38,027 bases of DNA from an uncultured Prevotellaceae bacterium (lineage in GTDB: Bacteria > Bacteroidota > Bacteroidia > Bacteroidales > Bacteroidaceae), in the NCBI GenBank assembly GCA_946185805.1, contig CAMHKU010000015.1, forward strand, positions 1-38,027, given 5' to 3'. Positions 1,568-38,027 of the stretch are shown in pieces (positions within the stretch are counted from its first letter, which is position 1; each line of letters opens with the position of its first letter). Position numbers and translations under genes: made by a program. A model generated the notes under the pieces. The model was not told where the DNA came from. It saw only the letters and a program-made list of their open reading frames with translations, and did not search any database.

Positions 1568-2497
1568 GTGTTTCGAAACATACCTACCATCACCAAAAAT
1601 CTGCTGGCAATAAACCTGCTGGCATTCATTGCCACGTGGGTATTACAACTGCGTAGCATTGATCTGGCAAATCTGGGAGGACTACACTTCTTTCTGGCCA
1701 GCGACTTCAGCCCGCTACAATTTATCACCTACATGTTTTTACATGCCAATTTGTCGCACATTTTTTTCAACATGTTTGCACTATGGATGTTCGGCGTTGT
1801 AGTGGAGAATGTATGGGGCTCGAAAAAATTCCTTTTTTATTACATTTCATGCGGCATTGGCGCAGGGCTCATGCAGGAGTTAGTACAGCTCGTCAACTTC
1901 TATTTCACCATCAAAAGCCAGGCGCCCGACATCAGCTTTGCCGAACTGTTTACAGTAGGCCATCAGCTAAGCCACCAACTCAACGGATGGACAACAATCG
2001 GGGCTTCAGGAGCTGTCTACGCCATCCTATTGGCCTTCGGCATGATTTTCCCCAACGAGCGTATTTTTATCTTCCCCCTTCCCATACCTATCAAAGCCAA
2101 GTGGTTTGTCTGTGGATATGCCGCCATTGAGCTGTTCTCGGCCCTCGGTTCCTCGGGCGATGGCGTAGCCCACATGGCTCATCTGGGAGGCATGCTCTTT
2201 GGCTTCCTCATGATACGCTATTGGAACAGTTACCCAGACTCAAATTATAACCGCTCCGGCGGTCAGGAGTTCTTCGACAACCTGAAGCGCAATTTTGAGC
2301 GTCGCCACAACAAAACCCAGAGCCAGATGCACGCCGAACGCGGGGGCTCCAAGGAGGACGACATGGCGTACAACGCCCGCAAGCGCCAGAATCAGGAGGA
2401 AATAGACGCTATCCTCGACAAGATTCGCAAGAGTGGCTATGACAGTCTGACCAAAGAAGAGAAGCAAAAGCTCTTCGACGCCAGTCGTAACACTTAA
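1568..2497 (+). CDS. Rhomboid family intramembrane serine protease (GTG start)
   Basis: GASGAVYAILLAFG (GxSG) and AHMAHLGGMLFGF histidine motif, multiple TM segments. Confidence 0.92.
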   Translation: MFRNIPTITKNLLAINLLAFIATWVLQLRSIDLANLGGLHFFLASDFSPLQFITYMFLHANLSHIFFNMFALWMFGVVVENVWGSKKFLFYYISCGIGAGLMQELVQLVNFYFTIKSQAPDISFAELFTVGHQLSHQLNGWTTIGASGAVYAILLAFGMIFPNERIFIFPLPIPIKAKWFVCGYAAIELFSALGSSGDGVAHMAHLGGMLFGFLMIRYWNSYPDSNYNRSGGQEFFDNLKRNFERRHNKTQSQMHAERGGSKEDDMAYNARKRQNQEEIDAILDKIRKSGYDSLTKEEKQKLFDASRNT

Positions 2498-2535
2498 AAC
2501 GCCAGCCATGACGCATAGTACGCCAGCCGGAACAC

Positions 2536-3633
2536 ATGATTAAACAGCTTAAGCAATTCACCATTAATCTGGTGGCCGGAGCAAATATAGCCACGGTCGC
2601 CATCATGCTGTTATCAGGTTATTCCGACAGGCTTAACCCCATAGACTATCCGCTGCTGGCCTGCTTGGGAATGGCATTCCCCATGTTTCTGATTTTCAAC
2701 CTGCTATTCCTCTTCTTCTGGATTATCTTCAAATGGCAAAAGCTATGGATTCCTGTCAGCGGTTATCTGTTAGTCTACAGCCCTATTAGCATCTATATGC
2801 CCATTAATCAGCCAAGTAAAGACGCACCCGACGACTGTATCGGTATCGTTTCATATAACGTATGCACCTATGGCGGCAACTATAAATACAGCGACGCTTT
2901 CGAGCGAATCCTTGACTACCTGAAACAAGAGGATGCCGATATCGTATGCATACAAGAGGATATCGATACCTGGCGGAAATACCTTTTCAAACGCTACGAA
3001 GCCCTATATCCCTACAATGACACCGTTCACTTCTCCAATTCGTCAACATCCATGAACGGCGTGGGTATCCATACACGCTACCCTATACTTCGAAAGGAGC
3101 GTATAGCATATCCCTCACATGCTAACGGTTCGGTAGCTTACTACCTTCTAAAAGATAAAGATACGCTGTTAGTGATAAACAACCACTTGGAGGGCACCCA
3201 CCTGACGAGTGAAGACCGAAGCCGCTACAAGGATATCTTAAAGGGCGAAGTAGATGGCGACACCGTCCGCGCAGAATCCATGTACCTCATCAGCAAGCTA
3301 GGACAAAACGCCGCTAAGCGAGCCATCGGCGTGGCTGCCGTTCGCCGCTATATGGATGCCCACCGGCAATATCCCACCATCGTTTGCGGCGACTTCAACG
3401 ACACCCCTATTTCCTACGCCCGCCATACACTGGCACAGGGCATGACCGATTGCTTTACAGCCTCCGGACAAGGCGTCGGTTTGTCATATAATCAGAAAGG
3501 ATTTTGGGTGCGTATCGACTACATTTTATGCTCCGCGCAGTTCACGCCATACAACTGCAAAGTAGACTCAAAAATAGATTTTTCAGACCATTACCCCATC
3601 CGATGTAAGTTAAAATTGGCTGATAAACACTAA
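2536..3633 (+). CDS. Endonuclease/exonuclease/phosphatase family membrane-anchored protein
   Basis: SYNVCTYGG, IVCIQED, NNHLE, VCGDFNDTP, DYIL and SDHYPI motifs of the EEP fold; N-terminal TM segments. Confidence 0.88.
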   Translation: MIKQLKQFTINLVAGANIATVAIMLLSGYSDRLNPIDYPLLACLGMAFPMFLIFNLLFLFFWIIFKWQKLWIPVSGYLLVYSPISIYMPINQPSKDAPDDCIGIVSYNVCTYGGNYKYSDAFERILDYLKQEDADIVCIQEDIDTWRKYLFKRYEALYPYNDTVHFSNSSTSMNGVGIHTRYPILRKERIAYPSHANGSVAYYLLKDKDTLLVINNHLEGTHLTSEDRSRYKDILKGEVDGDTVRAESMYLISKLGQNAAKRAIGVAAVRRYMDAHRQYPTIVCGDFNDTPISYARHTLAQGMTDCFTASGQGVGLSYNQKGFWVRIDYILCSAQFTPYNCKVDSKIDFSDHYPIRCKLKLADKH

Positions 3634-3737
3634 AAAACGAACGAAAAAGCGCAATAAATTTTCCTGTCAGTAAAAAATTGTGTATATTTGCAGGCTCAAT
3701 TGCATATATAATTAAATAAATATCAATAATAACAAAA

Positions 3738-6700
3738 ATGCAAAACAAAGGAATTGTAAAGTTTATTGCAGTGCTTCTTGTGCTGGTATGCTGCTTCTAC
3801 CTCTCCTTCTCATTCGTCACCCGCCACTACGAGAGTAAGGCGGCTGCCATGGGCGAGGAGGCCGGTCAGGAGTATCTCGACAGTCTGAAGAACGAGAAAG
3901 TGTACTTAGGCATATACTCGCTGAAGCAGTGCCGTGAGATGGAGATTGGCCTGGGTCTTGACCTGAAGGGCGGTATGAACGTTATCCTCGAGGTGTCAGT
4001 GCCCGACGTCGTTGACGTGCTCGCTGACCACAAACAGGACGCAGCCTACAAGAAGTCAATGGAGCAGGCCAAGAAGGAGGAAGAGACTAGTCAGAACGAC
4101 TTCATCTCGCTCTTCATCAAGTATTGGAAGCAGAATTCTAACGGACGTCCCCTGGCCGCCATCTTTGCAACACAGCAGATGAAAGGCAAGGTGAGCACAT
4201 CGTCTACCGACTCCGAGGTTGAAAACGCGCTGCGCGCTGAGGTGCAGTCAGCCGTCGACAACTCGTTCAACGTTGTCCGCAACCGTATCGATAAGTTCGG
4301 CGTCGTACAGCCCAACATCCAGAAGCTGGAGGGCCAGAGCGGCCGTATCATGGTTGAGATGCCTGGTATCAAGGAGCCCGAGCGTGTGCGTAAGCTCCTC
4401 CAGGGTAGCGCCAACCTTGAGTTCTGGGAGACCTACAACTCTCAGGAGATTGTCCCCCTGCTGGCATCGCTCAATCAGAAATATGCTGCCATGGGTGACG
4501 AGGCTACAGCCGACTCTACCGCCGCTGCTGCCGACACCACGGCCGTAGCTGCTGCCGACACTGCCAAGGCTGCCACGTCAAACCTGGCCGCCAAGCTAGC
4601 AAAGAAAGACAGCAATAAAGAGTCTGAAGCCAAATTGCGCGAGCAGGCCAAGAAGCAGAACCCCCTGTTCTCGGTGTTCCAGCCCATCCAGGGCCAGGGC
4701 CTGGCCATCGTTGGTTATGCTAACGGCCGCGATACCGCCGACGTCAACAAGATTATCTATTCCGATATTGCCGCCCAGGTACTGCCCGCCGAGTGCAAGC
4801 TGCGCTGGGGTGCCAAGCCCGAGGACTTCGGTGGCGAGAGCACTCATGGCGACATCTTCGCCCTCTATGCCCTGAAGATTACCACCGCCAACGGCCGCGC
4901 TCCGCTGGAGGGTGACGTCATCACCAACGGTAAAGACGACTTCGACCAGATGGGTCACCCCTGTGTATCGATGCAGATGAACTCCGACGGTGCCCGTCAG
5001 TGGAGCCAGATTACTAAGCAGAACATCGGCCGCGGCGTGGCTATCGTACTCGACGATGCCGTCTACTCCGCTCCCCGTATCCTTACTCAGATTGACGGCG
5101 GAAACTCACAGATTACCGGTAACTTCACCATCGAAGATACCAAGGACCTGGCCAACACGCTGAACTCTGGTAAGATGCCCGCTCCTACGCGCATCGTACA
5201 GGAAGAGGTGGTAGGCCCCTCGCTCGGTGCTCAGTCTATCCAGCAGGGTATCATCTCATTCGTCGTGGCCTTCGTGCTGCTGATGATCTACATGATCATG
5301 CTTTATGGCACCATCCCCGGTCTGCTGGCCGACTGCGCCCTGCTGTTCAACCTGTTCTTCACACTGGGTATTCTCACCTCGTTCCAGGCCGCTCTTACAA
5401 TGCCTGGTATCGCCGGTATCGTGCTGACCTTAGGTACCGCTGTCGACGCCAACGTGCTGATTTACGAGCGCACCAAGGAAGAGCTGCGCAGGGGGCTCAG
5501 CGTGAAAGAGGCTCTCAACAAGGGTTACTCTAACGCCTTCTCGGCCATCTTCGACTCTAACGTCACTTCGCTGATTACCGGTTTCATCCTGCTGTTCTTC
5601 GGTACGGGTCCTGTCAAGGGCTTCGCCACCACCTGGATTATCGGTATTTTCTGCTCGTTCTTCACCGCCGTGTTCCTCACCCGTCTGGTTTACGAGAACC
5701 GTCTGGCCAAGGACAAGTGGACCAACCTCACCTTTGTTACCGGCTACTCTAAGAACCTCATGCAGAATGCCCACTTCAACTTCATGGGCTCCTACAAGAA
5801 GTCATTCATCGTCTGGGGCGCAGCTGCCGTTATCTTCTGCATCTCGTTCGCCGTGCGCGGCCTGAGCCAGAGTATCGACTTCACCGGTGGCCGTAACTAC
5901 GTCGTCGTGCTCGACAAGCAGACCCCTGTGGAGAGCGTACGCCAGGCACTTAACGGCGCCTTCGTCAACACCATCGGCGAAAAGGCTGGCCAGGAGTCGA
6001 ACACCAGCGTCATCGCCCTGGGTACCGACGGCAAGACGGTGCGTATCTCTACCAACTGGGATATCGAGTCTAACAACCCTGAGGTTGACGACAAGGCCGA
6101 AACCATCCTTTACAACGCCCTGAAGAAAGCCGGTCTCATTAATCAGGCCGACGTCAACGCCTTCAAGAACCCCGACGTGCGCGAGGGTGGTTCTATCATC
6201 AGCTCGGCTAAGGTAGGCCCGTCAGTAGCTAAGGACATCACCTACGGCGCCGTCATCTCCGTTATCATAGCCCTGATAGCTATCTTCCTCTACATCCTGC
6301 TGCGCTTCCGCAACGTGGCCTTCTCGGTAGGTTCAACGGTGGCTCTGTTCTTCGACGCCCTCGTGGTTATCGGCTTCTACAGTGTGCTGTGGGGCTGGGT
6401 ACCCATGTCGCTTGAAATCGACCAGACATTCATCGGTGCTATCCTGACGGTGATTGGTTACTCTATCAACGATAAGGTGGTGGTCTTCGACCGTGTGCGT
6501 GAAAACATCCAGCTCTATGGCAAGCGCGACCGCCAGACACTGTTCAACGACTCGCTGAACCAGACGCTGGCCCGTACCATCAACACCTCGGTGACGACGC
6601 TCATCGTGCTGCTCTGTATCTTCATCCTCGGCGGTGACTCTATACGCAGCTTCTCGTTCGCCATGATTCTCGGTGTTGTCTTCGGTACACTTTCGTCGCT

Positions 6701-36336: not shown

Positions 36337-37212
36337 CTACAGCGTGGCAATTTCTTCTGCCGTCAGACCGGTAATCTCGGCTATATCTTCAATAGCATAA
36401 CCCTTGGCCTTCATCCTGGATGCATTTTTACGGTTAGCAATAACCTCGCCTTCTGCTCGACCTTCCGCACGACCTTTTTTCTCGGCTGTACTGACAGTGC
36501 TGAAGTAGTCCCAGTAGTTCTTTACGCTGGACTCGTATTCGCGGCGCTCCTCAAGGGAGTACTGCGCTATCTCTGCCTGCTCGAACACTTTCTGAAAGAC
36601 GCGGTCCTGCAAGGCCTTCGGGCGCTCCAAAAGCCGCGAGAGGTTACGCAGGACGTACATCCACTTGTCGAACATCGTCACCAGCTCGTCCTCCCGCTTG
36701 TTGAACTTAGGCATTTCTAAGTAGAGGAACGTCAGTTTGTTGTAAAACACATGGTTGTCTTCCACATCCTTCAGCTTGATCTCATGCACGAACTTGTCGG
36801 CCGGATACTCCCCGTCGGGGAACTTGAAGTTCAGCACGCCGACAGTGTAGACATTCTCTAAGCGGTAGTCCCACTTCTGCCCCTTCGGCGCCTGCTCGCG
36901 TATAGCAAAGGTGGAGTAATAGATGCTCCTGTCCTTGAAGTACTCCTGCTCAGCCTTCTGCATTTCCACGATGAAGCGCCCGCCATCGGTCCTCTGGCAA
37001 TAGACGTCGAACACGGCGCGGCGGTCGCCGTAGCCGTCGCCAAGGTGCTCGCTGTTGAGATACTGCACGTCCTCAATCTCCATCTTGTTGCTGCTGGGCA
37101 GGGCGTTGAGAAAGGAGATGAGCAAGTCCTTGTTCATCTCGGTGCCGAAGAGCTTCTTGAACCCGAAGTCGGTATAAGGATTGATGTATCGCTCGGTAGA
37201 AAGGTCTGCCAT
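36337..37212 (-). CDS. Rpn family recombination-promoting nuclease / PD-(D/E)XK nuclease family putative transposase
   Basis: RYINPYTDFGFKKLFGTEMNKDLLISFLNALL-like N-terminus, FDVYCQRTDGGRFIVEMQ nuclease core, C-terminal KGRAEGRAEGEVIANRKNASRMKAKGYAIEDIAEITGLTAEEI. Confidence 0.93.
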   Translation of the reverse strand: MADLSTERYINPYTDFGFKKLFGTEMNKDLLISFLNALPSSNKMEIEDVQYLNSEHLGDGYGDRRAVFDVYCQRTDGGRFIVEMQKAEQEYFKDRSIYYSTFAIREQAPKGQKWDYRLENVYTVGVLNFKFPDGEYPADKFVHEIKLKDVEDNHVFYNKLTFLYLEMPKFNKREDELVTMFDKWMYVLRNLSRLLERPKALQDRVFQKVFEQAEIAQYSLEERREYESSVKNYWDYFSTVSTAEKKGRAEGRAEGEVIANRKNASRMKAKGYAIEDIAEITGLTAEEIATL

Positions 37213-37318: not shown

Positions 37319-37349
37319 CAAAGATAAACATAAAAATCCGAACCGCAAA
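37319..37349 (-). promoter_or_regulatory. Bacteroidota-type promoter for the rpn gene
   Basis: Minus strand TTTG (37346-37349), 19-nt spacer, TATCTTTG (37319-37326). Confidence 0.85.
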
Positions 37350-37373
37350 GGATTCGGAAGGAAAAAAATAGTA

Positions 37374-37495
37374 AATAGTAAATAGTCAAATAGTAAATAG
37401 AGTGACACCTCTTACACCTGGCACTTAACTCGCTGAGAATCAGTGGCCATTTTCTGAGTGTCAGTAGCACCTGAGGTAACACCTGAGGTAGCACC
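37374..37495 (+). repeat. Left arm of 122-bp imperfect terminal inverted repeat
   Basis: Ungapped match to the reverse complement of 37855-37976 with roughly 9-10 mismatches by eye. Confidence 0.95.
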
Positions 37496-37854
37496 TGGGC
37501 AAACGTATGAGATAGCACCCGACGCTGCAGGTTGCATATTTATACACAACACTGCATATATATACAGAAAGGACCCTATTTTGTAAATTATTCGGAGCTT
37601 TTATCAAATCAGCGCGCGTTTTTCTCAAAACGCACGCTGATTTTTCAAAAATGGCCGCTGTTTTTTTCAAAACGCGCGCCGTTTTGAGCGTATATTTATG
37701 CAACTTTGGGAAACAATTAGGAAGATATAAAATAAATGGTTCCAACAACAGGAAAGAATAATTCTTGGCTGTAGTTTTTTTCTAATTGTTTTCAGATAAA
37801 ACCACTTGTTAATTTTATCTCTGCTGTGCAGTTGTTTAATAGCATATCACTATT

Positions 37855-37976
37855 GGTGTCACCTCAGGTGCTACCTCAGGTGCTACTGACACCCGGAAAA
37901 TAACCACTGATTCTCAACGAGTTAAGTGCCAGGTGTAAGAGGTGTCACACTATTTACTATTTGACTATTTACTATT
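37855..37976 (-). repeat. Right arm of 122-bp imperfect terminal inverted repeat
   Basis: Reverse complement matches 37374-37495. Confidence 0.95.
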
Positions 37977-38027
37977 CAAGTTTCGCATTCGCTCAACTTT
38001 CGGAGTTAGAAGGAGTTATCGGCCTTT

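Follow-up and report, generated by a model that had tools for sequence, protein, structure and literature searches.

The long palindrome near the end of the contig studied here is probably one copy of a dispersed, non-autonomous and modular MITE-like family that occurs in rumen Prevotella and has very long inverted arms. The window, i.e. the whole stretch analysed, comprises 38,027 nt (positions 1 to 38,027, forward strand, of contig CAMHKU010000015.1) from an uncultured Prevotellaceae bacterium, whose assembly (GCA_946185805.1) amounts to 2.75 Mb in 150 contigs and is 73.6% complete; the nearest named carriers are rumen Prevotellaceae. Two features of the family are unusual, a rhythm which is retained without the sequence, and the presence of two arm families around one core. 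As far as the literature was searched, the family is undescribed, with no Prevotella repeats of such a type being found there. No Rfam covariance model matched near any gathering score, and searches of phages, plasmids and IMG/VR gave no match above threshold.

Anatomy of the palindrome

A repeat search of the window identified two inverted arms of 122 nt each (37374-37495 and 37855-37976), which are 93% complementary and separated by 359 nt, in line with the gapless arms of about 92% identity that an earlier note on this sequence had placed by eye at the same coordinates. The block GTGACACCTCTTACACCTGGCACTTAACTCG is identical between the left and right arms, and the iterated units described at their inner ends are present, spaced at 12 nt. 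Folded as a single strand, the palindrome reaches -178.7 kcal/mol as compared to -59.8 +/- 4.8 for shuffled sequences (z -25), so that a chance origin can be excluded. The core was said to lack a credible ORF, and indeed none longer than 95 aa was found in it.

The heptamer tips require a revision. They are identical in both arms, as the earlier note had stated, but they do not belong to the repeated element, because they are absent from most other copies and because AAATAGT arrays occur on their own at 13 other fetched loci (L054-L066). The element proper thus extends from about 37401 to 37949 (Table 1), and the outer 27 nt form an AAATAGT microsatellite of their own. At these other loci the arrays often form 22-bp higher-order units (TAAATAGTTAAATAGTAAATCG), and at several of them (e.g. 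L059, L062, L065) an ATG follows close behind. The contig terminates 51 bp past the reported right arm, and this terminal piece (37977-38027) is taken up by another repeat, CAAGTTTCGCATTCGCTCAACTTTCGGAGTTAGAAGGAGTTA, which is also found beside or nested within other copies (L029, L030, L040, L041). The paired TGCATAAATATACA motifs at one core end, and those in other cores, are reminiscent of ArgR boxes in their spacing and form.

Table 1. Features of the palindrome and its surroundings (window positions).
Feature	Position	Strand	Remarks
Left arm proper	37401..37495	+	tip GTGACACCTCTTACACCTGGCACTTAACT, CTGA-GAA-TCAG, variable spacer, 12-bp iterons
Conserved arm tip, ~28 nt	37402..37430	+	near-invariant between copies
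Inner iterons	37464..37499	+	three 12-bp units (GTAGCACCTGAG)
Core	37496..37854	none	
Motif pair TGCATATTTATACA / TGCATATATATACA	37532..37562	none	at one core end; motif recurs in other cores
21-bp-period array	37599..37690	none	gives two adjoining GC-rich hairpins with A/T runs on either side; resembles a terminator on both strands
Smaller nested inverted repeat	37711..37791	none	AAACAATTAGGAA ... TTTCTAATTGTTT; present in other copies too
Right arm proper	37855..37949	-	inverted copy of the left arm
AAATAGT heptamer array beside left arm	37367..37400	+	separate genome-wide repeat
AAATAGT heptamer array beside right arm	37950..37976	-	
rpn / PDDEXK_2 gene	36337..37212	-	neighbour, outside the element
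Likely rpn promoter	37319..37349	-	TTTG-N19-TATCTTTG; read from sequence

Copies, distribution and rhythm

A search of its own assembly revealed about 15 copies, which have their arms in common and vary in the core. When the 27-mer of the arm tip was searched for exact matches, a further 63 stretches came up in six other assemblies of rumen Prevotellaceae, chiefly RUG200, RUG742 and RUG14573, and also RGIG4807, RGIG1522 and RUG14547; their flanks are mostly unrelated and both orientations occur. With a profile of the arm, 151 matches were obtained, among which inward-facing pairs were found in 70 loci with lengths of 239-729 bp (median 355), while unpaired single arms lie mostly at the ends of contigs or loci. 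Arm searches of individual genomes gave at least 41 matches each in RUG742 and RUG14573, at least 43 in RUG200, and 19 in RGIG4807. These lengths are within the 50-1000 bp usual for MITEs, and the elements also have terminal inverted repeats, are multicopy and carry no transposase gene. The suggestion in the earlier note of a MITE-like passenger is supported by the dispersed copies in the own genome and the six other assemblies, the missing ORF, the homologous sites described below, of which some have the element and others lack it, and a sporadic distribution among species: the element was detected in 9 of 398 genomes drawn from the genus, in one of 399 drawn family-wide, and in none of 39 near relatives. 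The copies have diverged (70-85%), which speaks against a recent burst. Several contigs of the own genome terminate at or close to a copy; such repeats break assemblies, and metagenome data are rich in rumen Prevotella genomes. In the RUG loci L067, L072, L079, L087, L095, L099, L103, L108 and L128, one end of the element runs into a common flank that is several hundred bp long and contains a TAnnTTTG-like box; in L087 this flank is located upstream of a 377-aa ATPase-like ORF.

Well-resolved copies consist of two inward ~95-nt arms, each with a conserved tip followed by 12-bp iterons, around a core with a 21-bp period. The arms begin with a near-invariant 28-nt tip (GTGACACCTCTTACACCTGGCACTTAA), the invariance of which is partly due to the use of this motif in selecting the sample, and continue with a CTGA-NNN-TCAG motif and then, beyond a spacer that varies, the iterons. 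This mini-palindrome showed no covariation beyond its column make-up. The self-match of the inner arms peaks at a lag of 12 (0.63 in the own genome, 0.57 in others, against a background of 0.25-0.26), and that of the core at a lag of 21, which equals two helical turns (0.40 and 0.50, respectively, against 0.26). Within each species, one motif is common to the tip and the inner iterons, and between species the two change jointly (CACCTGAGG, CACCCGAAG, GCACGTAAG); in G406, for example, CACCCG occurs in both. The core unit likewise differs by clade, being AAAACGGCCGCTGTTTTTTC-like in the own genome and GGCCGTGAAATTTTTCTGAGA in the RUG genomes, with 21 bp kept in both. The periods of 12 in the arms and 21 in the core are thus the same in two clades with differing core sequences, and they are found again in a third: in G328, a genome that is more distant, the 21-bp units read TAAACCACTGGTTTACGATCC and the iterons GCACGTAAGGTC, and GCACGT is present at the tip too. 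A dispersed element that keeps its spacing while the sequences of arms and core change would make it testable whether the arms are recognition modules of a co-evolving trans-acting enzyme, and how bacterial MITEs swap their ends.

The periods kept despite sequence change, and the motif shared by tip and iterons within each species, would also be compatible with intergenic repeats of the REP, BIME or BOX kind, which would be selected for a host function, either as bidirectional terminators or as arrays binding a chromosomal protein, and would be spread by recombination. Folding adds to this, as the core array of the window yields, on either strand, two GC-rich hairpins with A/T flanks. At L043 (3033-3112) and L046 (3026-3107), armless core-like arrays of 21-bp hairpins are positioned right behind stop codons and resemble tandem bidirectional terminators, so that it is plausible for the core to act as a terminator, and the core may insulate transcription. 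We nevertheless consider a selected host function unlikely as the explanation of the family, since most related species are without the element, as are some homologous sites, and there is no strong bias towards convergent genes: where both neighbours could be called (by simple ORF calling, with ORFs overlapping the element excluded), 15 elements are flanked by convergent genes, 30 by co-directional and 9 by divergent ones.

Core orientation and the neighbouring rpn gene

Long inverted arms beside a promoter, which in the window are 93% alike, suggest an invertible DNA switch whose core flips and thereby controls rpn, as had been proposed in the earlier note. Both orientations of the core should then be found. 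In 20 cognate pairs compared between genomes, however, the core scored higher in the same orientation in all 20, and in most pairs the left arm matches the left and the right arm the right (0.92-1.00) better than crosswise (0.63-0.88). In addition, the arms of an element are usually only 70-80% alike, and the rpn promoter is situated outside them. The sequence supports the remark of the earlier note on this promoter, which is of the Bacteroidetes type (TTTG at 37349-37346 of the minus strand and TATCTTTG at 37326-37319, 19 bp apart) and is rpn's own. Such a switch is hardly credible.

The exceptions to like-with-like matching involve one arm. As the arms of L071 are 95% alike while those of its cognate L089 are 80% alike, this suggests that one arm may overwrite the other arm of the same element. 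Within one element, the arms are on average 79% identical in the own genome and 72% identical in its relatives, so that the 93% seen in the window is unusual and probably reflects the same overwriting effect as in L071. That the hairpin is conserved for its own sake is not supported: among the RUG/RGIG copies, the two arms of an element pair no better than arms that were shuffled (p 0.28), and in the own genome, where the arms of three copies (that of the window, L033 and L039) are far more alike than those of the others, they do so only barely (p 0.035).

The adjoining gene encodes a PDDEXK_2/Rpn protein (PF12784, E 1e-74), and the earlier note had raised the possibility that the palindrome is a target of this nuclease. 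At three independent loci, namely the window, L122, and L125 together with its RGIG4807 relative L153, the element, or one truncated arm of it, is found immediately upstream of an rpn gene, where a back-of-envelope estimate based on ~150 elements, ~13,000 genes and ~20 rpn genes leads one to expect ~0.5. A preference for longer intergenic stretches is the only explanation that we can offer for this weak excess. That the element is the cognate target or a mobile partner of Rpn is nonetheless very improbable: nearly all elements adjoin other genes (3 independent rpn neighbours in ~70 elements sampled), none of 12 other rpn genes has such arms within ~2 kb upstream, the cognate rpn of RUG14573 is without arms, and RUG742 has at least 41 arm matches yet no PF12784 match. 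The rpn neighbourhood is incidental, and, save for the weak excess of upstream neighbours, rpn is cleared as the suspected partner. No flanking inverted terminal repeats have been reported for rpn genes (PMC10327210). In L153 of RGIG4807 (1757-5505), the copy beside rpn is interrupted by an intervening segment of ~3.7 kb, beyond which the 5' region of rpn occurs a second time.

Module exchange, related elements and mobility

The own genome contains a second arm family with inverted arms of ~98 nt, which are built of ATCCGTCA iterons and are unrelated in sequence. The 22 matches to this family amount to some ten elements, of which several have both arms. At least 7 of the core-only matches in the own genome sit within this second family (L045, L047, L048, L050-L053), where the cores are 82-90% identical to that of the window over 39-74 nt and no match to the window arm was found. 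This genome therefore holds at least two unrelated arm families with one core in common, and, to judge from these alignments, the core must have been swapped between arm families, or the arms around the core. A common core could also stem from recombination between repeats instead of transposition. More tentatively, these elements might belong to a bacterial foldback-like superfamily that is defined by rhythm and not by sequence, with arms of ~95-98 nt, 12-bp iterons carrying the tip motif, a 21-bp palindromic core and exchangeable modules, each arm family presumably having its own DNA-binding recombinase.

By analogy of layout, BOX and foldback elements come closest in logic to the new family. 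In Streptococcus pneumoniae, BOX elements consist of boxA-boxB(n)-boxC with short ends. They are similar, together with RUP and SPRITE, in being modular intergenic repeats with mutual nesting and terminator-like repeats, whereas the Prevotella element has inverted arms of ~95 nt, 12-bp iterons and a core with 21-bp period. BOX, RUP and SPRITE cluster together (PMC10969869). BrickBuilt/MITE464 (PgRS) of Porphyromonas gingivalis is a Bacteroidales MITE which likewise has ~10-20 copies, internal tandem direct repeats and no transposase, but it possesses unrelated ends in the form of 12-nt IS5-like terminal inverted repeats, internal repeats of 23 or 41 nt and no long iteron arms (PMC4596501). Membership in that family was rejected, as its ends are GAGACYNTTGCA with repeats of 23/41 nt, compared to GGTGACACCTCTTACACC with periods of 12/21 bp here (PMC4596501). 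Eukaryotic foldback elements of the FB/Galileo type are alike in layout, with long inverted arms and a variable middle, although they belong to another domain of life. Their arms carry short tandem subrepeats around the variable middle. Transposon ends of the Tn7, Mu and IS21 type contain several binding sites as direct repeats, and the several direct repeats of one motif at each end of our element resemble these, whereas no transposase, autonomous copy or established target duplication was found here.

We envisage that the conserved tip and 12-bp iterons at each end are probably bound in trans by a recombinase or transposase, which would move the element by reading the iterons. The gene-less core, with its 21-bp-spaced, palindromic and terminator-like hairpins, would be carried along, and copies would be inserted between genes. 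Some copies may subsequently be deleted between short direct repeats that lie at the base of the palindrome, leaving a scar. Many MITEs have no known parent element; in the own genome and its relatives, no arm pair more than ~1 kb apart occurred among the matches listed, these MAGs being incomplete, no transposase was found inside the element, and the mobilising enzyme was not found.

The clearest comparison of sites involves L129 (RUG14573) and L081 (RUG742), both with the element, and the same site in RUG200, which is without it and has closely similar flanks. The latter reads CGCACTATACCCA-CACCTATTG, with one CACC compared to two in the filled sites. The outer sequence TATAGAAACAATA has 9 exact occurrences in four genomes, and as 8 of these adjoin an arm, it belongs to the element. 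Since the RUG200 site retains outer pieces including TATAGAAACAATA, we interpret it as a scar of excision, probably resulting from loss between short direct repeats, rather than as the ancestral target. Such loss is a known fate of long palindromes. As a free genomic target, the flank TATACCCACACCTATTGTTT turned up in five genomes at just one exact and three inexact positions, and the joined RUG200 sequence is not widespread as a genomic site. L179 and L180, two more short joined sites, are scar-like as well. Of the empty sites with target duplications envisaged in the earlier note, the element-less homologous sites were thus found, but no clear target-site duplication was established at the sites compared, the closest being the 4-bp CACC that is better read as part of a scar. 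Further element-less homologous sites exist in RUG742 for L070 and in RGIG4807 and RUG14573 for L075, with junctions too diverged to read any duplication. In RGIG1522, the site of the RUG200 element L070 (L148:613-935) is occupied by unrelated inverted repeats (GACACTTCCTACACC) and GC-rich palindromes.
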